Source: Heliocidaris tuberculata
Taxonomy: Eukaryota > Echinodermata > Echinoidea > Camarodonta > Echinometridae
DNA: 64,000 bases
NCBI GenBank assembly: GCA_025618425.1
Contig: CM046839.1
Span: forward strand, 1,325,784-1,389,783
Direction: 5' to 3'
Shown here: positions 14,896-64,000 of the stretch, in pieces
Layout: each line of letters begins with the position of its first letter
How positions within the stretch are numbered: the first letter of the stretch is position 1
Translations under genes and position numbers: made by a program
The notes under the pieces: generated by a model
Databases searched by the model: none
What the model was told of the DNA's origin: nothing
The model's input: the letters and a program-made list of their open reading frames with translations, nothing else

Positions 14896-14984
14896 TAACT
14901 ACCTTCACATTATTTTGAACATTATCATTATCATCAACATCAATAACGTCATATACTAAAATTCTACTAGAGTAAAAGACTCAC

Positions 14985-15697
14985 CATAACATGAAAAGAC
15001 CAAGCAACGTGTTGATGGGACTGCTCTGTACCGGTCTTTCCTCTATCTCTCCAAACCGTCCATGTCTAGGACCCAGCATGAGGGTAGCTACCAGACCAGT
15101 TACTCCTCCTAACAGGTGCACTGGTCCTGCTCCTGAGATATCCACCACCCCCATGGCATGGAGCCAACCTTTAGGCGCCCATATCCAGTGGGCTGGCAAA
15201 GCATACACGAAAGTGTTTACAAAAGAAAAGATGATATAGGCCTCGAGCTTTGTTCTCTCCGCCATCGCTCCACTTACAATGGTGGTTGCCGTAGTCGCGA
15301 AGGATGCATGAAAGAAGAAATGAGCAAAGAGATGCCCCATCTCAGCATCCACCCTAGTACTATCAACGAAGAAATCGCCGATGCCGATGAAACCGTTGGA
15401 TCCGTCGTTGATGCCGAAGCTGAGACCATAACCGAACATCCAGAATGAGATACCACCGAACAGAACATCGACGGCGTTTTTTACCATGATGTTGACCTCG
15501 TTTTTGAGAGTGACACTGCCTGATTCGAGGAGACCAAACCCTGATTGCATGGTGAATATGAGGAAGGCACTTGTTAGAATCCATGTTGCATCGTCCCATG
15601 TCGCTGCCCGATACGCGGTAGGACTCTCTGTAGTCATGCTCTCCGTCGTCGCGTTTCCCTCTTCCCACATCGTTGATGATTCCATTGTCGAACTCAT
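14985..15697 (-). CDS. AMT: AMT-A: ammonium transporter, large first coding exon (partial gene)
   Basis: Encodes the N-terminal half of an Amt/MEP-family ammonium carrier of the plasma membrane. The start ATG at 15697-15695 has A at -3. The exon runs 713 nt without interruption to TTATG|GTGAGT, a good donor. Ignoring it, the frame stops one codon later, just after F-M-L-W. Visible residues: D35-D36-A-T-W motif of TM1, F129 (AmtB F107, outer gate), the G-A-M-A-E-R motif at 143-148, W173 (AmtB W148), D186 (AmtB D160) and H194 (AmtB H168). N15-A-T is a glycosylation sequon on the outward N-terminus. The same region of the neighbouring AMT-B gene is split by four introns, whereas AMT-A has none here and has an intron where AMT-B has none. 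Downstream exons are not seen: either the intron exceeds 14.9 kb or the gene is truncated. Confidence 0.93.
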
Positions 15698-24077: not shown

Positions 24078-24267
24078 ATGGAGGATATCACTTTATTACC
24101 CGACCAGGGTAATTATACCAATCAATCGTGTGATGGGTACGAGAATGCTACCGGTTGCTACGGGAACTTGACCGGTGATGCGTTGGGGTCGTCGGATCCT
24201 GGGACCAGTTGGGATGATGCTACTTGGATTCTCACCAGTGCTTTTGTTATCTTCACTATGCAGTCAG
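24078..24267 (+). CDS. AMT: AMT-B exon 1
   Basis: Start ATG at 24078 (GGGGAAGATGG context, A at -3). Encodes an acidic, glycosylation-rich N-terminus and the start of TM1 (SWDDATWILTSAFVIFTMQS). The donor is TCAG|GTGAGA, phase 1. It joins to exon 2 to give Q-S-G-F-G-L-L-E-S-G, exactly as in AMT-A. Confidence 0.93.
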
Positions 24268-35143: not shown

Positions 35144-38100
35144 ATATAGAGAGAGAGAGAGGGGGGGGGGGATGGAGAAAAATTTAGTATAATATGACCC
35201 TTTCCCCATCCCCTGTAATACCCGATGACCTAGTTCTCGAGTATTTCAGTCACTTAGCAAGACCAGTGATCCCCAATGACACCACTGCCTCCTAAAAGGC
35301 TGGACCCACACTACGCCGTCGTGGTAGGGCTTTGCTATGCACTCATTTCCCTCGAACCCTGTCTACGTTTAATTAGAAAGTTGTGTCTCATTTCCTGATA
35401 TTGAATTGTGCTTACTTATATCTTTTGAAAAAGAAAAAAGTGTAAATAATGTGGAAAGTTCTTGCTGTTTTTGTGGTGTCAGAAGAGGAGTTTGCATTTG
35501 TCCCTATCCATTTCTTTTGTTGTTGTTGTTGTTTACACTTCTTGTTCATAGCTCTCTTAATTGAGTATGCGATCTATTATCTTAATATCAGGTTTACTTT
35601 AAGAGGATTTAAACAACTGATTTCAAAACAATAACAGCATTAGGATGGTTTGAAAAGGTATTAAGGGCAATCCAACCTTGGTAACAATCACGCGGGTTTA
35701 ACCCTGAACGGTGCTTTAAGACATGTCATTATATCGAAAGTTGCTTCTTTTAACTTAGGTAGGGAGCTGGTAGAAAGAGATCCTATGAACACTGTGAGAA
35801 CTATAATGGTAACCATGGTAACACAGGGATTCGTAATGAAACACTCCCTCAAATGTGCACCCCAAATGGTATAATATCTCTGCCCTTAAACATGTTAAAA
35901 CAGGGTGCAAAATGAAACCTTAACAGCCGCAAGTTCGCACCCTGGACGAAAGCCTGACCAAGGAGGGAACTTGGATGTTATAAAACAAGCTGATGTTGAA
36001 TGATAGGAAGACCGAAATTTTAGTCATTGGTACTCCACGTCAGGTCTCTAAATTCAAGTCAAATGGTATATCAGTGGGTGACACTGCTATAAAACCATTC
36101 ATTAACGTGAGAAATGTAGGGGTGTTCTTTGATACCCACTTGAACATGGAATCACAAATCATTAGTGTATGTAAATCAGCATATCATATGATTTATAATC
36201 TGAGACGCATTCGTAAATATTTTGATCAAGATAGCATGAAAAATGTCGTCTATGCATGTGTTACAAGTAAATTAGATTACCGTAATAGTCTTTTGTATGG
36301 ATTACCAGATTCACATATAGTAAAGTTGCAGCGGGTTTCAAAAAACACGTGCAAGATTGATTTGTAATCTCCCAAGATTTGCCCATGTTACACCACATTT
36401 AAGGGAATTACACTGGTTGCCCATATGCCAAAGAACTGAATTTAAGATATTGATGATAGTTTATAAAGCACTAAATGGTCAGGCTCCTAGTTACATTATT
36501 GAATTATTGAATTTTAAATCTCAAACTCATGGTCATAACCTCCGTAGTATATTGCAGATCCCCCAGATCAAAACAAAAGTAACCCTAGGCGACCCATCAT
36601 TTTTTGTGCAGCCCCTAGATAGTGGAACAGATTACCACTAGATATAAGGAAATCTCGGACAGTAGAAAGCTTTAAATCAAAAGTGAAAACTTATTTGTTC
36701 TAAACATGGACCTATTTCTTTTTCTTTTATGCCCATGCTTTGAATTAGTTATAGCATTATGCGGCAGGGGCATTTAAGAGCTCTTGGAGCGCATTAGAAT
36801 ATACAGATATAGTTTATGCGCTCAATAAATGATTTATTATTATTATTAACATTGAATCTCAAGAGGTTCGAAAGTAACGTGTACCTTAAATGGTGTAGAA
36901 TGTATACAGCCTTAAAAGGTTCATTTGCACCATCAGCATATCTGCTATTGTATCGGTTTACTGAGTGGGTTGAACCCTTTATTTCTTAGTGTGTAAAATG
37001 ACAGTGTTTTGATATTTGTAAAGGTAAACTGAGAATGTGTGATTTCAGAAACCAAATTTTACGCTCATTTCTTGTGACATTGCATTTATGTGCGTTTAAA
37101 TGCCAAGTGTATTATCTTAGAATAGAACTGAATGGACAAAGCTTGTCAAATCAATGCGAGTACGTTCGACCTAGTAGTAGTAGTAGTAGTATTATCTTGA
37201 GAATAATGCATAGGTTCATTCCGAACGAGTATTGGAGATCATGACGCATAGCATTTACCACGAATTGCTGTTATGAGAATAAATGCATAAAGTTCCTGGT
37301 TTTAATACTCACTCATTTTGATCAGAACCGAAGTAATATTTCTCTTTCAAAAGATATAGATCTTGCTTTCTTTGACTTTCGATGTACCGGATATGCTTTC
37401 CATTAGCTTTTCATTGGTTTCTGTCTGCCATAAGGTGTGATGTAGAGTGAGGTCAGTATAATAAACTTCACTTCAAATTATTTTGAATGAAAGCAGAACA
37501 AATAACCAGAGAAACGGTTAGGTGAACGTTTAATAAAAAATATATGAGATTAACGTAAAGAACATTTTTTTTTGTAAGTCGATATTCATAATTTTATGAA
37601 ATTTAGATTTGCGAATTTGTTCTGAATGTGTAATGAAATCACTCAATATTACCCTTTCTTCATTTTTAATAACAGAACAAATCATTTTTCTATCTTCTGT
37701 ATATATTCACTTCATTCTCTGCAACTCCCATCAATACGATTCTAGTTCTAATATGTCTTGAGCAAAGCTTGAGGGGGTTTCTCTTTCCATCACAATTTTT
37801 TTAACAGAAGTGTCTACAAATCTGTCAAAATGTATTCTCTTCTGTTTTCTATTCTGTTTCTCTGATTTGCTTGCTTTTAATCGAAGTGACCAACTATTAA
37901 GACAGGATTGCTCTTAAAAGGGAAATCCAGCCTTAAAGGGAAGTCCACCCTGATTACACGTTGATTATAAAAGACGCAGAGAATTTAAAGAAACAGATCT
38001 GTGAAGGTTTGAGCAAAATACAATAAGAAATAAGAAAGTTATGAATTTTTAAAGTTGTAATCAATCAAACACAAATTGACAACTCCGTCACGTATCTTGC

Positions 38101-41312: not shown

Positions 41313-44300
41313 CCCCTTTCCCTTTATATTATTACCCCCATCTTTCTAAATGTATTACGGCCTGTATAGACTTATATTTGTCCTAGGTTAATGAATAATT
41401 CAATTTATGATATCATTTTATAAACGATGGTTGGTATCAACATTCATTATGGCGTGTGGGATGCAAAAGACTGCTATGTCGTAGGCGGATTGGCTAATTC
41501 ACGCTGATAATGAAATGTTATTTTGTATTTTGTATTAATACGAGTCAATAAAATATATCTACTATATTATCTTGTTTACTGAATTCAATTCTGATTAATC
41601 AAGTTGGCTTATCGGTTGGCTGCTTGTTGCCTTGGATACGATTCCATTATCATTATACGTGATTATGTATGCAAATTTCATTTTGTCATGTTATTGTTTT
41701 CTGTTATCCTCGTCCTTGTGTTTTATTGTCAAGATAAACCAATTAGTCAGTGAATACGGTGAATGATGCGGCCTTTGACACGAAATGTGAATGTGATATT
41801 GTACAAAAAGGGATTGTAAACTTTGTGTTGAATGACTTGCGTAAAGCCAGGCTTACACGAGCCGTCATTTGCTGACGTAAGGGTCGTGTAAGTGACTTTT
41901 GGTCTTGTGTGCGTCATCAAAGAGTGGTGACCTTTCAAAAATGATTGCAAATAAGGAACAGTGTGAACAATACTTTCAATAACTGGCGTATGGACTAATT
42001 CCCTTCATGGGCTCAATTAGCGCATGTAATGACGAAATCGTAATGACGCTTGGTGTGAGCCAGACTTTAGTGGTAGACTTTGCTTTCACAGGCTCGGTTA
42101 GCTTAGGTTATAAACCTATCGAAAAGACTTCTCTTGTACAGGCTGGAATATAACTCAGTCATCGATGTCAGATTAACACAGTACCTAACAATATCATACT
42201 CCAAGTCTCCAGTTAAAAGAAGCGCTCATTGCACATTAATTTATCACAAGAAACGTTATGTATTAAACGTCGGCATCTCATACATTTTAGTATGTGCTAC
42301 GGAAATAAAGAAAATTAAACGTCATGTAACTTTTCTAAAGTTATATTTTCATAAATTTTATCACTTGTTATAGCAACATTCTAACGTTACGAACAAGCAC
42401 TATTAAAGGCAAACTAATCTATATCATATTATTATCACTTAGTTTAGGATCTTTCTAAACACTTTTAAAGATATATTTACCTACATTTCAAATCCACAAT
42501 TGCTAATTTCATTCCATATAATATGTGCATGCTGAAAGCTATAGGTTGTAACATGGAGATGGATGGATGGAGACAACAGAGAAGAAAAGGAGAGGCCCGA
42601 ATTCACAAAGGAGGTTTAAATCGATAATACATCTGTGGTTTAAACCATGGGTAAGATTTAAACCTCCTTAAGCGTACTAAAATAAGCGTAAATAAGCGCA
42701 CATTGCACATACGCACGCTCAAATAAAATATATGATTGGATTGGATTCCGTGCGCCCGTACGCTTAAAAACCCCAGGAGGGGGTTTAAACCTATGCTTTA
42801 AACCATGTTTTAAACCAAACCTCCTTTGTGAATTTGGGCCAGAGAGTTAGAGAGAGAGAGGAAAAAAAAAAGGAAAAGAAAGAGAGGGAGGGGGGGGGGG
42901 GGGTTGTAGGAGAAAGAGAGAGAGAGAGAGGGGAGCGAGAAAGAGAGGGGGTTATCTGATTAATCAAATTTATTTCAGACCGTTAAAAAGTATTTTTTGA
43001 AACATTCAAACATCTTTTTTAAATTGCTTTCACAGGACTCAATTAATAGAAGTAGGAAGAAGGGGGGATGCCCATAATGTCTGATGCCCCCCCCCCCCCC
43101 ACCCACACCTACGATTTTTTGATGTCAAAGAATTTTAGAGTTTTAACTCCATCATTTGGGGTCTCTTAAAAGAGACCCCAAATGATGTGATGACCCCAAC
43201 ACAATTTGATTTTATTTTGTTCATTTTTATCCAGGTTTTGGACTGTTGGAGTCAGGTATGGTATCACGTAAGAACGAAGTCAACATCATGGTGAAGAATG
43301 CCGTCGATGTTATCTTCGGAGGTTTGACCTACTGGATGTTCGGTTACGGATTCAGCTTCGGCGACGACGAAGGAACGAACGCATTCTGCGGTATGATCAC
43401 AACGATGTTTTTTTCTGCTTTAAAAAAAAAAATCTGTTTGCGAATCATCTTCGTGCGAAATTATTTTTTGATCTAAAGATGCTTATCAATTCGTCGATCA
43501 GTCAACCGTTAAAGCTGGATGGAATGGCGCTGAATCGCACAATCCCTTGCTCCTGCCAATATGACCAAGGAATTATTCCTTGCTCTTGCAAATTCCTTTT
43601 CGTATTATGTAATTGGTAAGCTGCAATTGTCCAAAGGGTATTATTTAGGATACTGAAAACAAAATGTATCTTAGAGTGCACATCATCAGATCATCAAATG
43701 ATTGGCAACGTATAAACTCGAAGCATTTCTGTAAAAATAAATAAGGTTGGGGGATTTTGTTTTCATTTCAGAATACTTTGTCTATGGACAATAGTTACTT
43801 CCTTTAGAAACCTCTTCTCATATCTTTACATCGAGGTCTTAATATTATCTATAGCTTTATTACTTTCTACTGCTGATTGTCAATTTTATATTGCCTTGGT
43901 GATCTCAACCTCTACTGACCCGAATGGGCGTTTAATTAAAAAAACGTGTAAAATTGAAGAAAGAAATCTTATGAAATTTTATGTTTTGATAAGATACACG
44001 AAGGATATACTATTTGTAGCTCCTTTTAATCAAAACATAATGGCTTGACCCTGTTGACGTATAAAATTGAATTGGTATTTGGTGATGGTGTATTAAGGTG
44101 TGAGTATGAATGGTGTTGCGATATATGGCTGTCTTCAATCATGTCAATTATACACCAAAATAGGGGTATAGAATCTTTTCATTTTGAGTCTATTCAGAAA
44201 TATCGATGTCCATCCTCAGTGTCTATTCACAAATTCTTTGATAAATTTCATCTGCTTCTTGTAATAAACGTGCTTTTATCAGAACGTAATTGGCATTTAA

Positions 44301-44952: not shown

Positions 44953-45733
44953 ATGTTATCATGCACTTCCCTCCTCTCTGTCTCACTGTTTTCATGATTC
45001 ACTTTCATGCCATATGGAACATTTCATTTTGTGTGCGAATTATTTGTTTCCTTTTTCAGGAGTTGGTCATTTCTTTACTGATTCTGGTGATGCAGATGAA
45101 TTGGGATGGATCTTTGCTCAGTTTGTATTTCAAGCTTCCTTTGCTACCACTGCTACTACAATTGTGTCTGGTAAGATATTATTATATATGAAGCTACTTA
45201 CAGCATGCACAGTCTGATGAACATGACATGAACATGAAATGTCAATTTTACTTTTGTGAAACCCTCTCAACTAAAATATGCATGTGCTTAAGGATGCATG
45301 TGATAATTATGTAAGAATGCACTATTGATGCATAATTCCGTATCATTCAGGTAGAATCAGATCAGTAAGCGAAAAACAAAACATGAAGCAACTTAAATAT
45401 TTTACGGGTGACGACTAGAAAACAAGGCTTCCACATGGGTGAAATATTAGTAACTCAAGAATTAAGTTGGAGTAAGCTTCAGTAGGCATCTAGGATTATT
45501 TGATCAGGGGCATATGTCTCAAAATGTGCTAAAAAGCAAAAAATAAAAAAAGTTGGCCTAAAAATATCTAACAAAAGAAATTAACTTTTTTTTTTTTTTT
45601 TTTTTTTTTTTGGGGGGGGCACATGTACAACTTTGTGCACATATGCCAGATTGTGTTTTGCGCCCCCCAGAGCTGCCATTAAGCTTTCAAAACCTTTTCT
45701 TTATTGAGCTTTCGAAACCATCTATTTACTTAC

Positions 45734-52658: not shown

Positions 52659-55600
52659 TCTCTCGACCCCCTTTCTCTCTCTCTCTGTCGAAATTTCTGT
52701 CTTACCCTTTCTCTCTCTCTCTCTCTTTCTCACCGCCCCCCCTCTTTCTCTCTCTCTCCCCCCTCTTCTCTTTTTCTCACACTCTATCTATCTCAATGTA
52801 TCTATCTATCTGTCTGTCCTCGATTTGTTGTTATAGACTATTAAAGCAAATAACTGCTCAAGAAAATTCCTCTATCCACTTCATAACAGTCAATATAATT
52901 TAAAAGGTGCGAAATCACCTTATTCTTTTAAAACTTAACATGGCACTATACGGAAGGGAAATACGTTAGAATGCATATAAAGTGCATGTCAATATTGCAA
53001 TAATTACGTGGTCAAGCACACAAGATCTTAAACAAACTTTGATCCCCATTTATTTTAAGTTCCTTATATCTTGAATACATTTTGATGAAGCTCCTTCAAG
53101 AAATACATATACAATAAATAATTTGCAAAAGAGAAGTAAAAACCGATGGAGTTTCCTAGGTCTATTACGAAACGTCAGCATTGTCAAGATATATTGATAT
53201 AGCTAAATTTTCCTACCCTCATGAGAGTGATTCCCTACTTAGTATATTTATTGATGTGGAGGTAGAAAATTTATGCTTGACTTTGGGTCATGTAGCTCTA
53301 TCACCTTTTCCATCTTTGGGTTAAGCTCTTTGAGAGGGAATCTTCATGTGATGTGGAAGGAATAGTGCATTGGCATAAGAATGTCGTTGACGGCTTACTA
53401 GCTGTAACCTTGGGTGCAATCGTCATAATGCATGTTATCTACACGGAGAATCAATAAACTCCATAAAAACAGTCCCTTGCTCTTGACAAAAATATCTCAC
53501 TATTACAATTTGGTTTGAATATCCAAGGTTTTTGATAAACATGGAATCATAGATTTCATAAAATAATTATAATTATATGATATTCTTTTTACCCAGGGTA
53601 TATCCTAAACAGTATTACTAGTGTTTATGTCTTCTTCTTTTTTTCATGAATTATTTTACCCAGAATCTGCCCGAAATGATTAGGGCAGTGTGCAAGGTTA
53701 CCAAGTGAATTTTTTCCATTGCTAGTTTTATCAAGATTACGGTATAGAAAGATAGATTTATTTATTCAAACAAGAGAAGACTGTTTTAAACGTTAGAAAT
53801 ACCTTGCACATACTTCACTGCCAATAGGATTGGAAGTTAAACATTTTCAATTTTCATATGGAATCATAAGCATACTGAATTAGTAGGAACGTTTCGATCG
53901 CAGCGTATTCATTGAAAGTAGTGATTGTGTAATTTGACAGAGCAAATTATATTTTGTATTGTTAGATGAAATAATTCTTTCAGATTTTATCTGTTAAATG
54001 CATACTCTGTGACACTACGTAGGGTGGTAGATGTCGATCTATACGCCATTCATGGAGATTGATTTTTAAAAAGAAGAAACTTGAGGAAGGAGATAAACTA
54101 GGTATATCAAGGAGTTCTGTGATAACTCCTTGGGTATACCTTCAGTATGGTAGATAGTGGAATTTGAAAATTCCCTGTCTTTCTTGATAAGAGAGTAATC
54201 TTCTTCCTGTTATCATGAATATTCTACATTCCCTAAAGAAAGTTGACACAGTATGAAACCTACTGTTGGTTTCTCCCTATCCCAAAAGAAAACACCGACT
54301 GACCAAATTTTATAGAAAAAGGGTACACTGTAAACATGGTAAAAAAAAAAATCCGTGTTTTCACGGGAAATTTCCTGGCAGTCAGGATGCCGGGAATGCC
54401 CGTTTTTCCAGTTTTTTTTTTTTTTTTTTTTTTTTACTGGAAATCAGCATATATTTACAATCGCCCGACATAAAATTACAGCCTTTTTCCTGTAAAACAA
54501 CAGCAAGTTTGTTGGGCGATCGTAAATATATGCTGATTTCCGGTAAACCAACAAACTTGCTGTTGTTTTACAGGAAAAAGACTGTAAAATTGAAATAACG
54601 GCAATAATTCGTAATTTCAAGGGCCAACAACCTCGTAGTTTTACAGTTATTTTTTTACAGTGTAGTTATTATCATTTTGAATAAAAAAGCACTTGATCCC
54701 ATAGCTCTCAGTCTTGCGTTGTCTTATTTTATTCTTTTTCCTTTTAGCTCCCAATTCAATGTTATTTTACCCGTAATGATCCAAACATATTTATGTTTTT
54801 TTTTTTTTAAAGGTGCGATGGCTGAGCGAACCAAACTAGAAGCCTACTGTGTTTTCTCCCTGGTGAATACCCTCATCTATTGCTTTCCAGCTCACTGGAT
54901 CTGGGCTGAGTCTGGAATATTCAATCAAATGGGTGCTGTCGATATAGCAGGAGCCGGTAAGCATTGTTGAAGTGTCTCTATTTCTTGTCTTGCCCAAAAC
55001 ATGGATGAAATCAATATGGGGTGCAGCATTTGCATTTTGAAAGGGCGATCTTTTGTACCGACCCTCATGTGACTGATGATTCAGGCCTTTACATCCCATC
55101 TTATTCATCATTGAGAAAGATTAATTCCCATATGATATAGAGACTATGTAAAAATTATTGCGAGTTCCATTATGTCACAGAACACAATATAATACAGCGT
55201 CGAAGACAAGCTAGCAGTAATAGAAGCTTCTCAATTGGTCCTGACTCATGATGTTGTATCAAAAATTGAGTTTTTGATGCAAGACAATTTTCCAAATGGA
55301 AACCGCATTTTCAATTACTTTCGAATTACGTTGAGTTCAATCTATTGACATTCTATTATGAAATTAGGACCTACCTAGACGGAGTGGATACAAAGTACGA
55401 TTAAATATGATAGCGATCTCCCGTCGAATGTTATCATTCGACAAATTCGCTCGATTTTGTTTGGTCGAGAGAATCTGTTTTTTGTTGTTGTTGTTGTTGT
55501 TGTTTTTTTTTTTTGGGGGGGGGGTTGTTTTTTTATAGATATAATAACAGTCGTAATAGGGCGTAAAATGTGAACATCGGTGCCATGTACCTATTAGAAG

Positions 55601-58600
55601 TCATAAGCTGAACTGTTTGAATTGCAAACAAAAATAAAGATCAACATAATTATATCAATCAAGAGGGGATTGAATCATTAGGCATAGATGTAATAGTTTG
55701 AACTTTTAAGCTATATAAGTTAGTAATTCTAACTTTTTGTGTTAATACCGAAAATGAAAATGACATAAATGGATATTATGATTTCTATACACGTATTGCC
55801 ATTGTGTTCTTACTCGCAAATGCAACACATACAATTTTACTGACAATAGCAACCACAGCGAAGATAAATTAAACAAAAGTGTGTTTTGTCTGCAAGGGAT
55901 AAGTGAACACTAATTTCAGGTTTCAAAATTATTGTCCGTATTGAATCGACAACATCGTGGACAGCTTTTAGATGTGAATATCATGACAGTATTCTTAAAC
56001 ATGATTGAAAGAGCTGTCACGTCCTCTTATTGGTGAATTAATAGATGTGGTTTTGAAATCTGGTACGTTGTTACTAAAGTCATATCGAATCCAATTCCCA
56101 TTATGTGTTTAGTAATCTCGCACCTGCTCCATTATAAATGAAAAGAGCTAGGTAACTTACGTCACTTTGACGAACGTTTACTATCATCTCTTTAGTCATT
56201 GTTAGTGTTGACATCATTTTGAGTTTTAGCACCATTCAAAATGACAAAACGCTTCCTAATAGAACACCTGTGTATCAAAATCCATTTCTCCTTTACGTTA
56301 TTTAATCGAAAATATGAAATAGGGATTGCTGGATTTGACATGTTTCAGAAAGTAGATCTTGATTTTGGGGGTAAATGAATATCATTCTATGAAGACGGTT
56401 TAGAACGACATTTTGAAGTCCCCCTTAATACCCATATATAAGGACTATACAACAAAAAACATATATACCTATCACAGATTTCATGCTTAATTTATAGCAC
56501 GCATAACACACGAAGTATCTAAGGGCTTTCCTAACAAGAAATCGTAGATGCAGTATTAATATGGGAGTGATAAACTGTGTACCACACTGAAATGGTTAAT
56601 ACTGCAATGCAACTTAAAACAGTGTCTGAAGAATAAATACGAGAGCTTCCGTGCTTGTAATTGGTGGCTGAAAATGCGAGGTTGGGAGATATATATATAT
56701 ATATATATATATATAAGGAAAGAGGACAAGGAAAAGAGAGGGAGACAGAGAGACAGAGAGAGACTGAGACTATAAAGTGAAGGGTAGAGAGAGGTGAAAG
56801 ATTATTAAAGAGAGAGAGAGAGCGATAGACAGAGAAAGAGTTGAGTGAGAGAAAGAGAGAGAAAGAGAGAGAGAGAGAGAGACTGAGACTAAAGAATGGG
56901 GTATAAAGATGTGGGGTAGAGAGAGGTGAGAGATTATTAAAGAGAGAGATAGAGACAGAGAAAGAGTGGAGTGAGAGGAAGAGAGAGAAAGAGAGACAGA
57001 GAGAGAGCGAAGAGAAAAGGGGAGAATGGAGATAGAGAAAAAGAAAGAGAGAGAAATATAGAGAAAGGGAGATGAAAGGAAGTTCTGTTTCCTATGGTAC
57101 TCAATTTCTTTTCATTCCCCGTCGCTCAGGCACGACAACGATCTAATGAATGCCCACCTGCCATGCCTGTAATTAGCAAATTGACCAAGAGCTCTAAAAT
57201 GACCTGCTTTAGTTTAATTAGCAATTGACTGAAGTATGCTTTAGAAATATTTTGCTCCGACATGTTCCATATTGGCGAATTTCCGAATGTATCAATTTTT
57301 CTTTATAACACCACTTTATTTTTTTGTATCGTGTCTTTTAGGGGTCTTTGTCACATGATGTGTCATTTCCCCTTCATGCTATAGCACCATTTGGTCATGA
57401 ATCGTCATTCTAATTCTTTTATTCTAATAAATCAGTAATTGACTACGAACAACAAAAAAAAAACACCCCAAAAAAAACACAAAACACAAAAAAAATCAGT
57501 GAGAGGGAATGGTGGAATGGTGGTATGAGTGATACAACATTAGCTAACACACACAAAAAAAATCTTAACATGTGAAACTGACATGTATTTTACCGTTATC
57601 GTTCTCAAAACGTTGATCATTATGTGACCAGCCCTGGCCTTAAACCAATAGATGCCTAGAAAAACCCATTATCACCATTTCCATAAACAACGTATTACCC
57701 TTAAAATTCTGCCAGGTGCTGTTCATCTGGTAGGAGGCATCACGGGGTTGACTGCGACGATGATGCTGAAACCACGTCGTGGTCGATTCACTGGTCGACA
57801 TGTGACCATGGAAATGAGCAATCCAACCAATGCATTGCTGGGTATGTTCATGCTATGGTGGGGTTGGTTGGGATTCAACTGTGGCTCAACATTTGGTATC
57901 TCTGGTGGAAAGTGGAAACTGGCAACAAGGTATGTTATAATGCTCGCATTTTCTGGTTCATTAAAAGATTGATACTTGTTTTATATTTACTTTTCAAGTC
58001 TCAATTCTCAAGTTATATTTTATCGTATTGTCTTTCCACACCACATTCCTTTGTAAAGGCCCACTCAACATGCACTGTAATAGCTTCTTGAAAAAGAAAG
58101 GAAAAATACTACTATTTCTCAAGGACAATAATTTGTATTACAGTATCAATACCAAGACTGAACATAAAGTATGATATTATGTTTGATATATTTTGGTTTG
58201 TTCTCCCCAGTTATATTGACATCTCGCCAAAAGTGTCTCAATAAATTATCTCAAATGTGTACATGCATCGCTATTCTGATACATAGTGACGACAATACCT
58301 TATCAACTTTTACCTGAACATTGCCGCCATGCATTCTCAATACTGTTTTGTGGACACAACAAGCATCACATCACCTTGACAACGGAGGTCCTCTTCAAAG
58401 TGGATTTAGCTATCCATGTTTTTTTAACGCTATACAGAGTGTCCCAGAAAATAAAACAAACGAAACCATATGAAGCAAAGGTTTAAGTTGACAAAACTTT
58501 GCATTGTGTGACTGTTATTTTGTGTGTGTCATAAAGTAGAAGTGATAAACTTTGATAATTATGATACTTTGGTGGCATTGATTTGCACTTTTCTCACCCC

Positions 58601-61600
58601 ACCCCAGTTATTGAAAAATTGGCGAAAAACTTACTTTTGCAAACCTCGTGTAAAAACCACATTGCGAAAATGACCATGATGACGTAAACGGAGCATAACC
58701 TTTGCACGATATAACCATATAGTGATCTGTGCTACGATTCAAGATAGTAACACTTGGAGAGACAGATCTGTCGTAGACATTGATTGGGTCACTAAATCTG
58801 TCATTTGAAAGATTTCTATTGATAATGATCTGAATCGCTTTCATAAGGTTTTGTTGCTGAAGGGAAACTTGTGGATTTGATGATATCTCGGGATATATGT
58901 TGCTCTCCCTCCTCCTCCCCCAGCTGAAAGGTTTGGGTGCATATTCATGAAAACACCAAGTTTCCTACTTTTCATGTTCGCACAGGTGGGTTTATACATG
59001 ATATTTTAAAACTTAACAGTGGGCTTCAGTGAGCCGTTTGCGGATCAATGCCATCTAAAACTACATTAATTCTGCTTTATAGCATGTTAATGGTTATATT
59101 AAAACAGCACATGAATTAGTCAAATTAACCCTTTGTTTTCGGGTTTCGTTTTTTTTTTCTGGGTCGCACGGTACTACAGGTCGGCCATCGTCACTGTAAT
59201 GTCAGCCGTAGGGGGCGGTATATTGAGTATGGTGTGCAGCTTCATCGAGCGACCGAACGGACGTAAATTTGACCTGGGTTACTTGATGAATGGTATCCTA
59301 GGGGGTCTGGTTGGTATTACAGGTACATAAACCCCACCTTAAATCAGCACTCACTGTCATTGTGTTTGTGATCTGACATGTGTTACGTTTTGTTATTGCT
59401 CTTTGTCAGGTCCGCGGGCAATACCATCATGTCTTCAGTAGGGGGTGGCACTGTCGGTCTGGTGGGGAGCTGGCTAACTAAAAAACGCCAGTTTGATATA
59501 TCCTATCTTATCAACGGCGTTCTTGGAGGCTTAGTCGCCTGTACAGGTGATCTTTCATTCTGTCTCCCTCACTAATTGTCACCTCTTCCTTCCGCTTCCT
59601 CCCCATCTACTTCCTGCTGACCTGTGTTCGCTTGTAGTTACGAAATAGATAAAAGGAGACTCGCTATATCACAGCTTTTAATCTCAATGAGGATTTAAAC
59701 AAAATATATATATTTCAGATGTTGTCTGTTTCTTGTGAACTTGTTTCGTGTGACCTGAATAATCTACCGCTAATGATGTTCTTTCGGAAAACGTCCCTAA
59801 TTAATAACAAATGCATGATTATACACATTGTGTTCAAGACGTGGTCATGAGAGCTTCTGCATGTTTATCTGAGCTTAGCAAATTTGCAATTTCTTTAACT
59901 CTTGTTTCGTACATTAATGTAATCATTGCGTGTTTCAGACTTTCAATTGCTTAGTGACATGGAATCAGCATTTTCTTCGTTTTCACATTTTCCTTCAGGA
60001 TATGAAGATTGCGCTTTAATTGGCCGACTTCTTGGTAATTCCAGTCACATTGAATTCCAATAAATTGCATATTGTTAAAAAAAACAAAAAAACAAAAACG
60101 CTTATTTATCCTTGGCTATTCATGGGTTCATCTTCTTGATTATATTTTAGTATATTATATTATAAATTGATATTTTCAAAGATTTCGATGTAACCGATAA
60201 TTTTACTTTCAACACGATAAAAACTACTTTCGAAAAATCAACTCAAGGCAATTTCAATAGCCCTGTCTGTCACCTTTAGAAATGTGCGAACATTACAATG
60301 GCGTATTACGTAATCCGAACCTGATTTCTATGGGCAGTACAATAGGCCTTTGAAATTGCCCTTGAGTTTATTTTTCGAAAGTAGTTTTTATCGTGTTTTT
60401 CATATTCTAAGTTTAATATGTAAATATTCGCTTTTAAGAATACTTATTTAAAGAAGGTGAAAATAGTGTGGTAAACATCTTTTAGGCAGTATTCTGGTCT
60501 TGTCATCACAAATAGTTCCAAATTAACCCATTACCTACTGGAACCGTGTGGGTCCTGTATTAAGCCTATGCATGGGAATGAGAGAGTTTAGTAGTCGATG
60601 AGTTAATATTGTCTGATTTTGAAAAGCTAGAAAAATTACTGTATAATTTTTATTTTTCTCGTCCAAACCCTAGAAATTCCGTTATTACTATTAAATGCAT
60701 TGTCTTAGATATTATATACAGAATCTTGTAATCTTGTGGAAAGTAAACATGAAAATATATATAGATGAATGCCAAGCATAATCACGTGTAAAATAAGATG
60801 TATAGGAAATCCGGCAAGCACAAATTTGAACATCCCGATGTCAGCTGCATTAGATTCAGATTACAAACACCACTTGTCCAATGATATTCATATCTACGTA
60901 AGATATGAAGTAAGAACTTGTATTTTTACATTCATTCCTACCTACAGCTTTCATCTTTAAGAAATGTAAAGATAGAAGTTGTATTTTGGCAAGAAGATTA
61001 ATAAAAAAAAAATGAAGTGTTAGTTTATGCTATAGTCGCAATGTAATCCATATATCTCTATCATGTCCATAATACATTCATAAATATAAATTCAGATGGA
61101 TATAAGGGGAGGAATTCGTAAGGATTAAAGATATTACCTAGATTTTGAAAGTCTATCTTGAAAATGATTCTAAAATTTGTTAGTGAAAGTAAGGGACTTA
61201 TTTGAAATATCAATCATTTCAGGGTTATTCAGACCTCATTACGATAAGACTTCTAATTATCTTTATGGAAATAAAAATTACCTTTTCCCTTATTAAACTT
61301 TCAGGGAGGTTGTATTTTATAACAGTTCGAATACAAACTAATGAATAATTCAACTGCTCTCACGTTGTTTAGATAGTTTAATTAAACACGATAAAAACTA
61401 CTTTCGAAAAATAAACTCAAGGGCAATTTCAAAGGCCTTTTGTACTGCCCCAAAAAAATCTTGTTCGGATTACGTAACACGCCATTGTAATGTTCGCACA
61501 TTTCTAAAGGTGATAGACAGGGCTATTGAAATTGTCTTGAGTTTATTTTTCGAAAGTAGTTTTTATCGTGTTATTAGAACCTCATGAAAATGTAAACCAA

Positions 61601-61872
61601 TATTAACTGATCTTTATTTTCTTCTTCTTTTTCTTCTTTCTTTGTTTAATATTCCTCAGCTCTATGTGCTTTAGCCCGTCCTTGGGAGGGTCTACTGATC
61701 GGGGCGATCGGAGGAATTATTGCTGTCTATACCCCGTCATTGCTGGAGAAGATTAAGATAGATGATCCTGTAGGAGTGATAGGGGTGCATGCTGTAGCCG
61801 CATCGTGGGGTATTCTATCGGTAGGGATCTTCGCTCAACCAGATGACATTGAGCAACTCAATGTCAGAACAG
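24078..61872 (+). CDS. AMT: AMT-B: ammonium transporter gene, 8 exons seen, 3' end outside window
   Basis: An Amt/MEP-family ammonium carrier. The spliced frame is 24078-24267, 43235-43390, 45060-45170, 54813-54956, 57716-57929, then either 59180-59322 or 59410-59546, then 61660-61872. All introns are GT-AG. Using exon 6, about 390 residues are present, out of roughly 450-500 usual for animal AMTs; the last transmembrane helix and cytoplasmic tail lie beyond the window. Conduction residues are conserved: F139, W183, D196, H204, F254, S258 and H363 correspond to AmtB F107, W148, D160, H168, F215, S219 and H318. Four N-x-S/T sequons (N12, N15, N23, N30) precede TM1, consistent with an external N-terminus. 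Introns 1-4 and 6-7 are phase 1 and intron 5 is phase 2. Confidence 0.93.
24285..24364. mobile_element. About 80-bp TTAACCC foldback element, copy a
   Basis: Begins TTAACCCATTGCATACGGGA and ends AGTAGTCAACGGGTTAA; the terminal 11 bp are inverted repeats. Related copies lie at 38654-38732 and 60523-60606. This copy sits 18 bp after the exon 1 donor. TTAA at both ends suggests TTAA targeting (as in piggyBac-type elements), which is inference only. Confidence 0.8.
26039..26240. mobile_element. About 200-bp foldback element rich in AGAGCTC words
   Basis: Ends AAAGGAATAAG and CTTATTCCTTT are inverted. The inside carries palindromic GAGCTCCGCTAAGAGCTC and AGAGCTCTTAGCGG segments, then a pyrimidine run and a G-run. 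No coding. Confidence 0.7.
26874..27063. mobile_element. Foldback element, CAGGGGCGGATCNAGG family, copy 2
   Basis: The left end CAGGGGCGGATCGAGG is followed by a G-run. The right end is a C-run, then TATAAAATCCTCCATCCGCC. Same design as 7467-7676. Non-coding. Confidence 0.7.
27615..29258 (-). pseudogene. TRIM-like gene, 3' part: B-box, coiled coil, C-terminal repeat domain
   Basis: An uninterrupted minus-strand frame of about 545 codons from the element junction to the stop at 27615. It opens with E-C-P-N-C-K, the last zinc-ligand pair of a RING finger. A B-box follows (C30, H33, C41, C44, C49, C52, H58/H59 and H61, counted from the codon at 29213), then a charged coiled coil to about residue 170. 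The C-terminal ~260 residues form a repeated beta-rich region resembling the propeller-like end of TRIM2/3/56-type proteins. The family comprises E3 ubiquitin ligases, expanded in echinoderms (established knowledge). The first part of the RING lies across the inserted element at 30318-30464. The frame itself is intact, so decay is recent, or the piece is still used from an internal start. It is nested antisense in AMT-B intron 1. Confidence 0.85.
29261..30315. mobile_element. Non-autonomous TIR element, copy 2, inserted in the TRIM-like gene
   Basis: Termini TACAGTGCGTCCCAG and CTGGGACGCACTGTA, flanked by TA on both sides (29259-29260 and 30316-30317). The inverted arms extend inward for over 200 bp (29261-29500 against 30064-30315), including AACCCTTTG(T)TTT and TGTGGTCACAATAA segments. 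Length 1055 bp, with no transposase frame. The central 29640-30020 is unrelated single-copy-like sequence. The TA duplication is the hallmark of Tc1/mariner-type integration, so that affinity is likely. Confidence 0.9.
30318..30464 (-). pseudogene. TRIM-like gene, 5' part: RING finger start
   Basis: ATG at 30464-30462. Encodes a short acidic leader, then C-S-I-C-L-D-I-F-D-D-A and C-G-H-T-F-C-R-K-C: six of the eight zinc ligands of a C3HC4 RING. The frame enters the inserted element after R-K-A-Y and stops inside it at about 30246. The seventh and eighth ligands (C-P-N-C) are found beyond the element at 29258-29240. Deleting the element and one TA copy does not restore the frame: the two halves are offset by one base and a stop appears at the junction, so the locus carries a further small lesion. 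The only in-frame splice I see would need a weak GTCCCA donor with the element's own TATAG acceptor. Confidence 0.85.
31790..32135. repeat. (GA)n-rich purine tract
   Basis: About 345 bp of GA-rich purine sequence with AAG and A-runs, ending in a pure GA run at about 32108-32133. The opposite-strand Leu/Ser-rich frames are artefacts. Confidence 0.9.
34440..35170. repeat. Two GA-rich tracts with AT-rich DNA between
   Basis: GA repeats at 34440-34555 (with a short TA run) and 35108-35170 (GA, TA, then a G-run). The 550 bp between contain nothing recognised. Confidence 0.85.
35985..36848 (+). mobile_element. LINE fragment (L2/CR1-like reverse transcriptase C-terminal part)
   Basis: Frame one (35993-36364) begins LNDRKTEILVIGTPRQ, the segment following the RT catalytic core. 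It continues through I-R-K-Y-F-D to D-Y-R-N-S-L-L-Y-G-L-P. After a frameshift near 36357 the frame reads H-L-R-E-L-H-W-L-P and F-K-I-L-M-I-V-Y-K-A-L-N-G-Q-A-P-S-Y-I, the characteristic C-terminal block of L2/CR1-type elements. It ends in GCTCAATAAATGATTTATTA plus (ATT)n at 36848. The catalytic core is missing, so this is a dead, 5'-truncated copy in the sense orientation of AMT-B intron 1. Confidence 0.85.
38151..38356. mobile_element. About 190-bp hairpin element AACACGATAAAAACTACTTT, copy 1
   Basis: The left arm AACACGATAAAAACTACTTT, then CGAAAAAT, is perfectly inverted at the right end. The arms continue with GGCAATTTCAA. The centre carries a TTACGTAATCCGAACCTG motif. Two more copies lie at 60211-60397 (same orientation) and 61385-61572 (inverted). 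This copy is inserted within the larger foldback element. Confidence 0.9.
38654..38732. mobile_element. About 80-bp TTAACCC foldback element, copy b
   Basis: TTAACCCATTGCATACAGGA at the left, CAGTAGTCAACGGGTTG at the right. It is closely similar to 24285-24364 and lies inside the right arm of the 37938-38751 element. Confidence 0.8.
39387..40037. mobile_element. About 650-bp foldback element
   Basis: The left arm includes AAAAGGCCCCTGAAACCC, CAACCCAAATGCAAGTT and, further in, CTCCACCCTAAAAAAAGTCC and TCATTCCTGCAATGACATCA. All recur inverted between 39838 and 40037. The right arm has small gaps. No coding. Confidence 0.8.
40069..40269. repeat. Tandem duplication of a 101-bp unit
   Basis: Two adjacent copies, each starting GCTTCCGTTTT and running through CAGTGTCGTGTCGCAATACA to AACCTTAAACGTGATTAAA. 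They differ at only a few positions, so the duplication is recent. Confidence 0.9.
40392..40534. mobile_element. Short foldback element, GGGGAGCGTTTCAT family, copy 2
   Basis: Ends AGGGGAGCGTTTCATGAAAG and CTTTCATGAAACGCCCCCCT. The inner arms are TTGTCGGATA. The core contains CTTGCATCTGATTGGCTGAG, the reverse complement of the core of copy 1 at 10998-11138. Confidence 0.85.
41080..41310. repeat. (CT)n microsatellite
   Basis: CT-rich pyrimidine tract with nearly pure CT at 41220-41306, on the sense strand of AMT-B intron 1. The Ser/Leu frames are artefacts. Confidence 0.95.
41311..42593. other. Non-coding part of AMT-B intron 1
   Basis: AT-rich sequence. 41845-42070 contains inverted CGTCATTTGCTGACG-like words (GCCGTCATTTGCTGACGTAA, then TAATGACGCTTGGTGTGAGCC) that may be another old foldback element (left word AGCCAGGCTTACACGAGCC, right word GTGAGCCAGACTTTAG). 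No gene. Confidence 0.45.
42594..42840. mobile_element. 247-bp foldback element with GTTTAAAC words
   Basis: Termini GGCCCGAATTCACAAAGGAG and CTCCTTTGTGAATTTGGGCC are near-perfect inverted repeats. The interior repeats GGTTTAAA/TTTAAACC words and an AAGCG-type palindrome. It is followed at once by a GA tract (42841-42950). Confidence 0.9.
43150..43187 (+). repeat. Perfect 18-bp-arm hairpin upstream of AMT-B exon 2
   Basis: Arm CATCATTTGGGGTCTCTT (43150-43167), spacer AA, then its exact reverse complement (43170-43187). It ends 47 bp before the exon 2 acceptor, within the usual branch-point window, so it could affect splicing if it folds in the pre-mRNA. It may equally be a very small mobile-element remnant. 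Confidence 0.9.
43235..43390 (+). CDS. AMT: AMT-B exon 2
   Basis: Acceptor TTTTTATCCAG|GTTTTG, donor CTGCG|GTATGA, phase 1 at both ends (156 nt). Encodes the end of TM1, K-N-E-V-N-I-M-V-K-N and TM2 (DVIFGGLTYWMFGYGFSFG). Closely matches the same part of AMT-A. Confidence 0.93.
43391..45059 (+). other. AMT-B intron 2 with long CT tract
   Basis: 1669 bp. 44394-44955 is a CT-rich pyrimidine tract on the sense strand, with pure (CT)n at 44898-44952, ending 107 bp before exon 3. The remainder is AT-rich with no gene. Confidence 0.9.
45060..45170 (+). CDS. AMT: AMT-B exon 3
   Basis: Acceptor CTTTTTCAG|GAGTTG, donor GTCTG|GTAAGA, phase 1 at both ends (111 nt). Encodes G-V-G-H-F-F-T-D-S through TM3, with F139 (outer gate, AmtB F107) in FQASFATTATTIVS. 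Confidence 0.93.
45722..45782. repeat. (TTTA)n microsatellite
   Basis: About 60 bp of TTTA tetranucleotide repeat following a poly-T run (45587-45612) and a G-run. Confidence 0.95.
46520..47124. repeat. 605-bp (AGT)n array with an internal strand switch
   Basis: Almost pure AGT trinucleotides with rare AAG, AGC and GTT variants and a GGA block at about 47010-47035. At 46944-46964 the sequence switches to seven ACT units and back, giving a local AGT/ACT inverted repeat. The long poly-Ser, -Val, -Thr and -Leu frames on both strands are artefacts. Confidence 0.95.
48494..49803. mobile_element. hAT-like non-autonomous element with GAGACC-repeat ends
   Basis: The left terminus CAGTGTTGTATCCGAGGCCG and right terminus GCATACAATACTG (inverse CAGTATTGTATGC) are inverted repeats. 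The element is flanked by a perfect 8-bp duplication, ATGCACAG, at 48486-48493 and 49804-49811. CAGTG-type ends with 8-bp target duplications are diagnostic of the hAT superfamily. The left end is expanded into a GAGACC hexanucleotide array (48520-48698); the right end (about 49670-49800) is built of GGCCGA/GCCTCG words. The 1310-bp element has no transposase frame, so it must depend on another copy. Confidence 0.9.
48520..48698. repeat. (GAGACC)n hexanucleotide array
   Basis: About 30 units of GAGACC with variants (GAGACA, GAGACT), inside the left end of the hAT-like element. The Arg-Asp and Ser-Val repeat frames across it are artefacts. Confidence 0.95.
51099..51375. mobile_element. Foldback element, CAGTGGCGTAGC family
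   Basis: The left end CAGTGGCGTAGCGAATG is matched by the right end CGTATCTACGGCATTG (inverse CAATGCCGTAGATACG). The interior has GGGGGCTCATGCCCCCC-type words and a pyrimidine tract. About 277 bp, no coding. Confidence 0.75.
52608..52830. repeat. (CT)n / (TATC)n tract
   Basis: CT-rich pyrimidine tract with short TATC runs, on the sense strand of AMT-B intron 3. The Ser/Leu frames are artefacts. Confidence 0.95.
54325..54665. mobile_element. Foldback element upstream of AMT-B exon 4
   Basis: The ends ACACTGTAAACATGGTAAAA and TTTTTTTACAGTGTAG are inverted. Inside are two long interleaved inverted pairs: GGAAATCAGCATATATTTAC against GTAAATATATGCTGATTTCC, and CCTGTAAAACAACAGCAAG against CTTGCTGTTGTTTTACAGG. 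It ends about 148 bp before the exon 4 acceptor. Confidence 0.85.
54813..54956 (+). CDS. AMT: AMT-B exon 4
   Basis: Acceptor after a poly-T tract (TTTTTTTAAAG|GTGCG), donor GAGCCG|GTAAGC, phase 1 at both ends (144 nt). Encodes G-A-M-A-E-R-T-K-L-E-A-Y, TM4, the H-W-I-W motif with W183 and the start of TM5 with D196. Confidence 0.93.
54957..57715 (+). other. AMT-B intron 4
   Basis: 2759 bp with a TGT/poly-T/G-run patch near 55490-55525, a (TA)n run (56688-56714) followed by a GA-rich tract to 57075, and A-runs near 57450-57500. No gene seen. Confidence 0.85.
56688..57075. repeat. (TA)n followed by GA-rich tract
   Basis: A short TA run, then about 360 bp of GA-rich purine sequence. It contains a near-duplicate block, with GAGACTGAGACTATAAAG-like words at about 56760 and 56880 and GGTGA(A/G)AGATTATTAAAGAG in each. 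This shows a 120-150-bp duplication within the tract. Confidence 0.85.
57716..57929 (+). CDS. AMT: AMT-B exon 5
   Basis: Acceptor TCTGCCAG|GTGCTG, donor ACAAG|GTATGT; enters in phase 1 and leaves in phase 2 (214 nt). Encodes TM5 with H204 (AmtB H168), the cytoplasmic loop, and FMLWWGWLGFNCGSTFGISG with F254 and S258. AMT-A has an intron within the F-M-L-W codons, where this exon runs through. Confidence 0.93.
57930..59179 (+). other. AMT-B intron 5
   Basis: 1250 bp, of which the last ~740 are a TIR element (58433-59173). The first 500 bp are AT-rich with no recognised feature. Confidence 0.9.
58433..59173. mobile_element. Non-autonomous TIR element, copy 3, abutting AMT-B exon 6
   Basis: The left end TACAGAGTGTCCCAGAAAAT and right end TTTTCTGGGTCGCACGGTA are diverged inverted repeats of the family at 5367 and 29261. 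The left flank is TA. At the right, CTACAG follows and completes the exon 6 acceptor. The right terminal repeat supplies GTTTCGTTTTTTTTTTCTGG, the polypyrimidine stretch of that acceptor. About 741 bp, no transposase frame. Confidence 0.85.
59180..59322 (+). CDS. AMT: AMT-B exon 6 (alternative to 6')
   Basis: Acceptor ACTACAG|GTCGG, donor TTACAG|GTACAT (weaker than consensus); enters in phase 2 and leaves in phase 1 (143 nt). Encodes residues 272-319: S-A-I-V-T-V-M-S-A-V-G-G-G, a variable loop, then Y-L-M-N-G-I-L-G-G-L-V-G-I-T. This corresponds to the two helices between AmtB S219 and the H318 helix. Exon 6' just downstream encodes the same segment with about half the residues identical. Joined to exon 7 it gives G-I-T-A-L-C-A-L-A, a normal AMT reading. 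Confidence 0.92.
59410..59546 (+). CDS. AMT: AMT-B exon 6' (alternative to 6)
   Basis: Acceptor TTTGTCAG|GTCCG, donor GTACAG|GTGATC; enters in phase 2 and leaves in phase 1 (137 nt). Encodes S-A-G-N-T-I-M-S-S-V-G-G-G, a loop two residues shorter than in exon 6 (K-K-R-Q in place of R-P-N-G-R-K), then Y-L-I-N-G-V-L-G-G-L-V-A-C-T. It aligns to exon 6 with a single two-residue gap and has no stop. Only 87 bp separate the two exons. Splicing 6 to 6' would shift the frame to a TAG within eleven codons, and skipping both also shifts the frame. Confidence 0.9.
60211..60397. mobile_element. About 190-bp hairpin element, copy 2
   Basis: AACACGATAAAAACTACTTT at the left and its inverse at the right. 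Nearly identical to 38151-38356 in the body, including ATTACGTAATCCGAACCTG. Same orientation as copy 1. Confidence 0.9.
60523..60606. mobile_element. About 80-bp TTAACCC foldback element, copy c
   Basis: TTAACCCATTACCTACTGGA at the left, TAGTCGATGAGTTAA at the right. Somewhat more diverged than copies a and b, sharing GGAACCGTGTGG.TCCTGTATT. Confidence 0.8.
61385..61572. mobile_element. About 190-bp hairpin element, copy 3 (inverted relative to copy 2)
   Basis: Same terminal repeats. The core reads GTTCGGATTACGTAA, the reverse complement of the core in copies 1 and 2. It is 988 bp from copy 2, so the two could base-pair along most of their length in AMT-B pre-mRNA. Confidence 0.9.
61660..61872 (+). 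CDS. AMT: AMT-B exon 7
   Basis: Acceptor TATTCCTCAG|CTCTAT, donor AGAACAG|GTAAAT, phase 1 at both ends (213 nt). Encodes A-L-C-A-L-A-R-P-W-E-G and the helices containing GVIGVHAVAASWG, where H363 (exon 6 numbering) is the second pore histidine (AmtB H318). It ends at Q-L-N-V-R-T, before the last transmembrane helix. The next exon is not within the window. Confidence 0.93.
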
Positions 61873-62139: not shown

Positions 62140-62887
62140 TGTTTTTCTAAGGAACATGAAAAGCTCCTTATTGTAGTAGTACTCACAAACCATCTGCATG
62201 CGAGCTCCATACCCGTAAAAAAAATAAGAGAATGTTGCTTAAAAACATTTCCCTGATGTTGTTTGTTTAAAATGCCGTTAAAGCTTTTTCTTGTATTGAT
62301 TTTAATATCTTAAAGAAGTGAGATGTATGGCTTCTTCATTTTTATTGAGATATTAGGAAATTTTAAGAACAAACACCTTAATATTTTTGTTTTTTTGGTT
62401 GTTGTCATGAGAAGAAGTTTGGTTGTACCACATGCTGGTAATGATGTTTTTAAAGAGACAGCCCTAGTAGTTAAAATATGGCTTCCTTTTCTTCTTTTTC
62501 ATTTGTAGAGATGGTATTAATTATGTTTTTAAAGGGAATATCATAAGCAGTTAGAAATATGGCTTCTTCTAATTCTTCACTTATCGAGATGAGAAGACAG
62601 CATGGAGTGGCGCCATATTATTGTAATGCATTGTTACACTCATCAAAATCAGAGCTGTCTACAGAATTTAGCCAACTCGGCTCAGATAGACAATATGACG
62701 CAAGCTGCTTTGTTGGGCAAGCATATAACAAAAGATTAGCACCATATTGTGTCCGGGGACATCGCTAGAACATTTTGAATGGGGCATTTTTGCCGACAAA
62801 AATGCTGTATTGCTGCATCTTGTATTGCTGTCTGTATCACCCCATTTTTAAATTTTCTTTTCTTCCCTTTAAAAAGAACCCCCCCCC

Positions 62888-62919
<32 letters not shown>

Positions 62920-63590
62920 TGCTATAAAACAAGAAACGCCCCTTATAGTGCTCACAAACCATATGCATGCAAGCTCCATACACGTTAAAAATAAGAGTGT
63001 TGCATAAACATTTCCGTGCATAAACATTTCGCTCGGCTTCTGTAGAAGCCCGTCGTCTCCAAAGGGTTAAAATGCCATTAAAGCTTTTTCTTGTATTGAT
63101 TTTAATATCTTAAAGAAGTGAGATATATGGCTTCTTCATTTTTATTGAGATATTAGGAAATTTTGAGAAGTCGTGCAAAAATTGTTATGATGTGGCATGT
63201 ACTTAAAAACAATCTCCTTAATATTTTTTTTTATTAAAAATAATTTGGTTGTACCATAATGCTTGTCATGATGTTTTTAAAGAGACCACACCTAGTAGTT
63301 AAAATATGGCTTCCTTTTCTTTCTTTTTTTCATTTGTAGAGATTGTATTAATGATGTTTTGAAATGGTATATCACGGCTTCTTCTACTTCTTCATTTATC
63401 GAGATGAGAAGACAGTGTGCAGTGGTGCCATACTATTGTTATGCATTGTTATACAACTCATCGAAATCAGAGAGATCAACAGAGTTTGGCCAACTCGGCT
63501 CAAATAGACAATATGAAGCAAGTTGCTTTGTTGGGCAAGCATATAACAAAAGATAAGCGTCATATTGTGTCCAGAGGCGTTGCTACAACA
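62140..63590. repeat. Tandem duplication, unit about 800-815 bp
   Basis: Blocks recur in order. CTCACAAACCAT.TGCATGC occurs at about 62182 and 62950. AAGCTTTTTCTTGTATTGAT occurs at about 62281 and 63081. GAGATGAGAAGACAG occurs at about 62588 and 63402, followed by a GTTGGGCAAGCATATAACAA block in both. The open frames in the last block are conserved between copies but too short and repeat-like to call genes. A poly-A run (62888-62916) lies near the junction. Confidence 0.85.
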
Positions 63591-63599
63591 TTTTGAATG

Positions 63600-64000
63600 G
63601 GGGTCACATAATTATCAGAAACCCTCGCTGCCCAAATATGTGGATATTCTGGCATCTCACTGCCCGAATATGAAGTGACGGTTGCCCGAATGTCGGAACT
63701 GTGAAAATCCTGGGGGGCAGGGGACGCCTTTTGTCCAAATATTAACTCTCAAGCGTTTTGCTAGCGAGCGAAGTGAGTGAGCAAAAAAGATGTCCGTTTT
63801 CGTTTGTTTTGTTTTTTTTAGTTTTCGTAGTGAAAAAGTACGGAAGTTACATGATTACAGAAATTACATAACTATTAGGGAGCCTCTCTGCCCAAATATG
63901 TGGATATCTGGCACCTTGCTGCCCGAATATGAAGTGGTGTTTGCCGGAATATCGAAACTTTGAAAATCCTCTGGAGGGTGCTGCAGCCCACTGCCGAATG
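63600..64000. repeat. Direct repeats with TGCCCAAATATGTGGATAT words
   Basis: 63604-63720 and 63850-63985 share TGCCCAAATATGTGGATAT, CTGCCCGAATATGAAGTG and TTTGAAAATCCT/GTGAAAATCCT in the same order. The array runs off the end of the window. Confidence 0.8.

Follow-up and report, generated by a model that had tools for sequence, protein, structure and literature searches.

Two neighbouring internal exons of a sea urchin Amt gene, 6 and 6', encode alternative versions of the same two-helix segment, and they are best read, with considerable confidence, as mutually exclusive exons. We observed that the exons are homologous, that their phases agree, that the frame logic allows only one of them at a time, that the splice sites are intact, that the exons have been under purifying selection and that the pair occurs in a second urchin. 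We infer that 6 and 6' each enter mature mRNA and that use of one or the other is regulated. According to the mechanism we propose, exon 6 would have been tandemly duplicated long ago within the urchin Amt gene, and each mature mRNA would take one of the two exons and encode a full transporter. TM7, the cytoplasmic loop between TM7 and TM8, and TM8 would thus come in two versions.

The host gene, a member of the Amt family, has nine exons and lies on the plus strand of a 44-Mb contig in a genome of 897 Mb; exon joining gave GT-AG borders at all introns. The window, by which we mean the whole stretch of 64,000 nucleotides analysed (G000:C8:1325784-1389783), ends just before the last two exons. 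The parts of the gene are as follows:

24078-24267, plus strand: Amt exon 1, from splice sites and open frame; predicted start codon, N-terminus and start of TM1
43235-43390, plus strand: Amt exon 2, from exon joining
45060-45170, plus strand: Amt exon 3, from exon joining
54813-54956, plus strand: Amt exon 4, from exon joining
57716-57929, plus strand: Amt exon 5, constant, upstream of the swap; residues aligned to AmtB H168, F215 and S219
59180-59322, plus strand: exon 6, the TM7-loop-TM8 form with a two-residue loop insertion (RPNGRKF)
59323-59409, plus strand: spacer intron between 6 and 6', 87 nt, with a branch-point-like CTGAC 54 nt from the donor
59410-59546, plus strand: exon 6', the alternative TM7-loop-TM8 form without the insertion, kept in a second urchin
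61660-61872, plus strand: Amt exon 7, constant, downstream of the swap; residue aligned to AmtB H318
G000:C8:1390611-1390737 and 1391304-1391634, plus strand: Amt exons 8 and 9, just beyond the window end

The two exons lie side by side and are similar in length, exon 6 having 143 nt (borders acag/GTCG ... TTACAG/gtacat) and exon 6' 137 nt (borders tcag/GTCC ... GTACAG/gtgatc). Each is entered in phase 2 and left in phase 1. Joining exons 5-6-7 or 5-6'-7 keeps the reading frame open, giving proteins of 542 aa with exon 6 and 540 aa with exon 6', both free of internal stops. When both exons are included, the 5-6-6'-7 join reads ...GLVGITGPRAIPSCLQ and then ends at a TAG after ten codons of 6'; when both are skipped, the 5-7 join shifts the frame and reaches a stop. 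The frame rule thus permits only one of the two exons in any one protein, however splicing proceeds, and messages with both exons or neither, having an early stop, should be degraded. A preliminary description of this DNA had proposed the same rule, and its exon coordinates, GT-AG sites, phases and shared residues were exact to the base; its two-residue difference in loop length and 87-nt spacer were likewise recovered.

The gene belongs to the Amt family of ammonium transporters by sequence, and transport activity is predicted. Both isoforms match PF00909 at full length (392.1 and 389.3 bits against a cut-off of 23.2, profile positions 2-395 of 399), and both score alike against the solved Amt structure 8qj3 (170.4 and 174.4 bits). 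Among the best 120 of 7777 protein matches the closest relatives of the gene are sea urchin proteins, including one from S. purpuratus with 88% identity over 88% of the query and one from Lytechinus pictus with 86% identity over 70% of the query. All eight AmtB positions checked, comprising the twin histidines, the phenylalanine gate and the S1-site residues, are identical in both isoforms. The gene shares its full-length match, twin histidines and pore residues with other animal Amt proteins (PF00909; echinoderm AMT2/AMT3-like), but the known ones carry a single TM7-TM8 version each, whereas the window gene holds two.

The homology of the tandem exons, also part of the preliminary description, was borne out. 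Exons 6 and 6' agree at 26 of 47 residues in a codon alignment from which the two unmatched codons of exon 6 were dropped, and share 80 of 141 nucleotides. In tblastn against the window and four flanking loci, each exon picks out its partner with 53% identity (E 6e-8 and 8e-12). When the 6' peptide was searched against the complete genome (E up to 1), the matches were 6' itself and exon 6, the two best candidates being those scored. Synonymous sites between the two are saturated (29.5 differences over 36.7 sites, pS 0.81) while dN is 0.39, and dN was below dS in all 1000 bootstrap samples. When neutral evolution was simulated from either exon at 0.8, 1.0 or 1.5 changes per site, an open frame and the observed identity survived together in none of the 4000 runs at each setting. 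Long purifying selection on the exon pair is evident from the sequence comparison. With 0.4 changes per site some 5% of runs do as well as the real exons, and with 0.2 over half do, so a recent relaxation is compatible with the data. In an alignment of 40 proteins that we selected from the 120 listed, exon 6' keeps 10 of 10 segment columns conserved at 90% or more and exon 6 keeps 9 of 10.

Loop length bears on which form is the older. The 6' length is found in 112 of 121 listed relatives and the two-residue insertion of exon 6 in 5 of 121 (the three urchin orthologues and two sea cucumbers), so exon 6' looks like the ancestral form. One of the remaining listed relatives has three more residues and three have one fewer; the urchin paralogues P0054 and P0071 are without the insertion. 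In a tree of the segment (34 rows, only 48 columns), exon 6 of the window groups with that of S. purpuratus, L. pictus and Diadema in one clade (99/94), with 6' outside it and nearest to sea-cucumber and hemichordate forms. Of four clade tests on these 48 columns, the sisterhood of the two window exons was rejected (p-AU 0.029). Three groupings were not rejected: 6' placed within the camarodonts (p-AU 0.22), 6' joined to every urchin exon 6 form (p-AU 0.39), and the urchin and sea-cucumber forms together to the exclusion of 6' (p-AU 0.42). With P0122 (see below) taken into account, the exon pair predates the split of the window species from an S. purpuratus-like urchin, and it likely, though not provably, predates the Diadema split as well.

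Some 8 kb from this gene lies a second Amt gene in head-to-head orientation. A single long exon makes up much of its 5' part, and its TM7-TM8 segment was found once, in two separated pieces. A derivation of 6' from this neighbour was rejected on account of that single split copy, and the sea-cucumber and hemichordate forms nearest to 6' in the tree also speak against it. Other features of the neighbourhood include repeats within the Amt introns. The paired element in the intron after 6' has 54-nt terminal inverted repeats (85%) and looks like a MITE-type element. The frame inside intron 1 looks TRIM-like: it matches the B-box profile PF00643 below threshold, with 22.5 bits where the cut-off is 24.1 (E 1.3e-4). 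Two further frames, at 22212-22646 and 35984-36638, appear reverse transcriptase-like by eye, and neither has a Pfam match at E 0.001.

14984-15697, 1905-1976, 1259-1303 and 766-831, continuing in the locus L009, minus strand: second Amt gene
27615-29288, minus strand: TRIM-like frame of 557 codons, intronless, inside Amt intron 1
60211-60397 and 61385-61572: inverted element copies in the intron after 6', 94-95% complementary
62267-62784 and 63067-63602: direct repeat in intron 7, spaced by about 800 nt, 87-97% identity in pieces

The best argument for 6' as a working coding exon comes from another urchin. This urchin came up only with a shorter query, the peptide of exons 5, 6' and 7, when the 6' part was scored at E up to 10; one protein was found among 20 candidates, P0122, a 142-aa ORF on a single 1063-nt contig that is genomic or unspliced and bears the source tag 'lgn', which we guess to denote assembled sequencing reads. 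P0122 begins within exon 6, reads through the spacer and then through the whole of 6', the order being that of the window. Its exon 6 is identical to that of S. purpuratus at 42 of 43 residues, and it therefore comes from S. purpuratus or a close species. Compared with the window, its 6' is identical at 43 of 45 residues and its exon 6 at 35 of 43 (Fisher p 0.047, borderline), with nucleotide differences, as lower bounds, of at least 3 in 135 for 6' and at least 11 in 129 for exon 6. The spacer shows at least 13 mismatches and 14 gap nucleotides, and measures 73 nt against 87 nt in the window. At both donors the amino acids of P0122 fit the same donor sequences as in the window. In P0122 the 73-nt spacer is open and in frame, so that intron retention would read both exons, unlike the window spacer. 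The close agreement of 6', set against the lower identity of exon 6 and the altered spacer, indicates that 6' is under strong constraint rather than decaying, judged from one further species. Both exons are thus conserved at the protein level in a related species, the start of exon 6 being missing from P0122, and the neutral decay of one exon that the preliminary description had set as grounds for refutation was not seen in this one further species, where 6' is the better kept of the two.

Annotated proteins give a one-sided picture. Three annotated orthologues, P0001 of S. purpuratus, P0004 of L. pictus and P0002 of Diadema antillarum, are all of the exon 6 type, and no 'isoform' label appears in their names. 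When the 540-aa isoform was the query and its 6' region was scored (E 0.001), one scallop Amt protein was returned among 71 candidates and no urchin protein. No annotated urchin protein containing 6' was found in protein sets clustered at 90% identity, a clustering that may hide members, the clusters of Diadema and L. pictus having 3 each and that of S. purpuratus 1. In humans, newly found mutually exclusive exons are often weakly or narrowly expressed, which is possibly why they had gone unannotated (PMC5740500, in part), and by analogy weak or narrow expression would fit the absence of the 6' isoform from annotation.

These observations also bear on other explanations of the pair. One is that 6' serves as a poison exon, spliced mainly into non-productive joint messages that tune the amount of transporter; the stop ten codons into 6' on joint inclusion and the exon 6-only orthologues of the three urchins would both suit it. 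Such an exon needs no protein frame, yet it is 6' that is the more nearly identical between the two urchins (43/45 against 35/43) and that keeps all ten family-conserved columns, and the conserved frame of 6' is the one used only when exon 6 is skipped. We consider a poison exon most unlikely. It would be very improbable indeed that 6' is a relic which has recently gone out of use in the window species. Its donor has no G at +5, and in the simulation a brief recent neutral period would be invisible. But G at +5 is missing from three of the nine donors of the gene (exons 6, 6' and 7), exon 6 itself included, and the 6' donor pairs with U1 at -8.2 kcal/mol, within the range of -4.4 to -11.1 spanned by the gene's donors; moreover, the frame and splice sites of 6' are intact, with no stop or frameshift, and it is nearly identical to the copy in the second urchin. 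An assembly or haplotype artefact has a negligible chance of being the answer, given that the exons have only 80 of 141 nucleotides in common while lying 87 nt apart in a 44-Mb contig, and that P0122 has the same exon order in another urchin. We regard exons 6 and 6' as a real, old and constrained pair of candidate mutually exclusive exons, very likely functional.

What keeps the two exons apart in splicing is less clear-cut. The preliminary description had held the spacer short enough to hinder 6-to-6' splicing, which proved borderline. Counted from the donor of exon 6, branch-like sites of the form yTnAy lie at 54 nt (CTGAC, the best) and at 31 nt, so that the best one falls just outside, and the other inside, the distance of less than 50 nt from donor to branch point used for human mutually exclusive exons (PMC5740500, in part). 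The spacer of the second urchin is even shorter at 73 nt. Incompatibility of U2 and U12 sites was dropped as a mechanism, the donors being U2-type by eye. A duplex calculation gave the following two arms of a possible hairpin:

58433-58468, plus strand: intron 5 arm, 36 nt, complementary to the exon 6 polypyrimidine tract
59142-59173, plus strand: partner arm, the exon 6 polypyrimidine tract and acceptor region

The duplex has an energy of -31.4 kcal/mol (z -3.9), and none of 200 shuffles was as low. Among the five acceptors tested only that of exon 6 stands out; complementarity was unremarkable at the acceptors of exons 5, 6', 7 and 8, where 33, 76, 47 and 188 of 200 shuffles were as good, the 6' acceptor being compared with intron 5 only. 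A possible RNA hairpin may mask the polypyrimidine tract of exon 6, which we put forward as a lead only.

To see what the swap would change in the protein, we aligned it to E. coli AmtB. The swapped segment corresponds to TM7-TM8 of AmtB, at mature residues 229-273. It contains none of the pore residues F103, F107, W148, D160, H168, F215, S219 and H318 (AmtB numbering); the counterparts of all eight are in constant exons. The suggestion in the preliminary description that the segment packs next to the pore thus gained no support, none of the eight checked pore residues lying within it. Several of the listed residues are named in PMC10433425. In a structure predicted for the S. purpuratus protein (pLDDT 79 on average; blocks of ten residues at 91 to 97 in the segment and 79 at the loop) the segment forms a helix at 210-239, a loop and a helix at 248-261, which, counted back from TM11, are TM7, the TM7-TM8 loop and TM8. 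The N-terminus of AmtB is outside (PMC10433425, in part), which makes the loop cytoplasmic. Because the regulatory contacts described for Mep2 involve other regions, namely ICL1, ICL3 and the C-terminal region (PMC4852598, in part), a regulatory role for the TM7-TM8 loop is only a guess. As the checked pore residues are constant, shared ammonium selectivity would be expected, and our guess is that the isoforms differ in the packing of helices, in the assembly of subunits or in regulation from the cytoplasm.

The arrangement is ordinary in kind. In NKCC2 (SLC12A1) the exon 4 variants are mutually exclusive and differ in affinity. Like exon 4 of that gene, exon 4A/4B of SLC39A14 (ZIP14) and the pair in SLC25A3 are tandem homologous exons used one per message, and in all of them part of a membrane transporter is swapped while the rest stays constant. 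These systems, however, belong to other families and folds, whereas here the swap concerns TM7-loop-TM8 of an echinoid Amt protein and the splicing is predicted from the genome. An affinity change of the NKCC2 type is not predicted for the Amt pair, since the checked pore residues are constant. SLC39A14 and SLC25A3 are named in a study of human mutually exclusive exons (Hatje et al. 2017, PMC5740500, in part), which applied frame, homology and folding criteria like those found to hold here; its data are human, and the word 'ammonium' is absent from its main text. No paper on splicing of animal Amt genes was found in the open-access literature searched, which included part of a Drosophila Amt paper (PMC4238959), in keeping with the statement in the preliminary description that no such switch had been described in the Amt family. 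Within these searches a mutually exclusive exon pair is apparently new for the Amt family.

Beyond the pair itself we can sketch a fuller scenario, quite possible although we would lean slightly against it, in which echinoids keep an ancient regulated Amt switch: the choice of 6 or 6' would exchange TM7-TM8 and their loop, perhaps via the hairpin in intron 5, and give trimers that differ in assembly or gating, for example between tissues or between larva and adult. If true, this would be, to our knowledge, the first case in the Amt/Mep/Rh superfamily of a switch by mutually exclusive splicing. Amt/Mep/Rh proteins are textbook structures, and in our judgement little is known of the regulation of animal Amt proteins. 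The findings suggest that a constrained coding exon is absent from present urchin annotation, in a gene amenable to study in a standard laboratory embryo. A natural swap of TM7-TM8 that leaves the known pore residues untouched would isolate the role of these helices and of their cytoplasmic loop.
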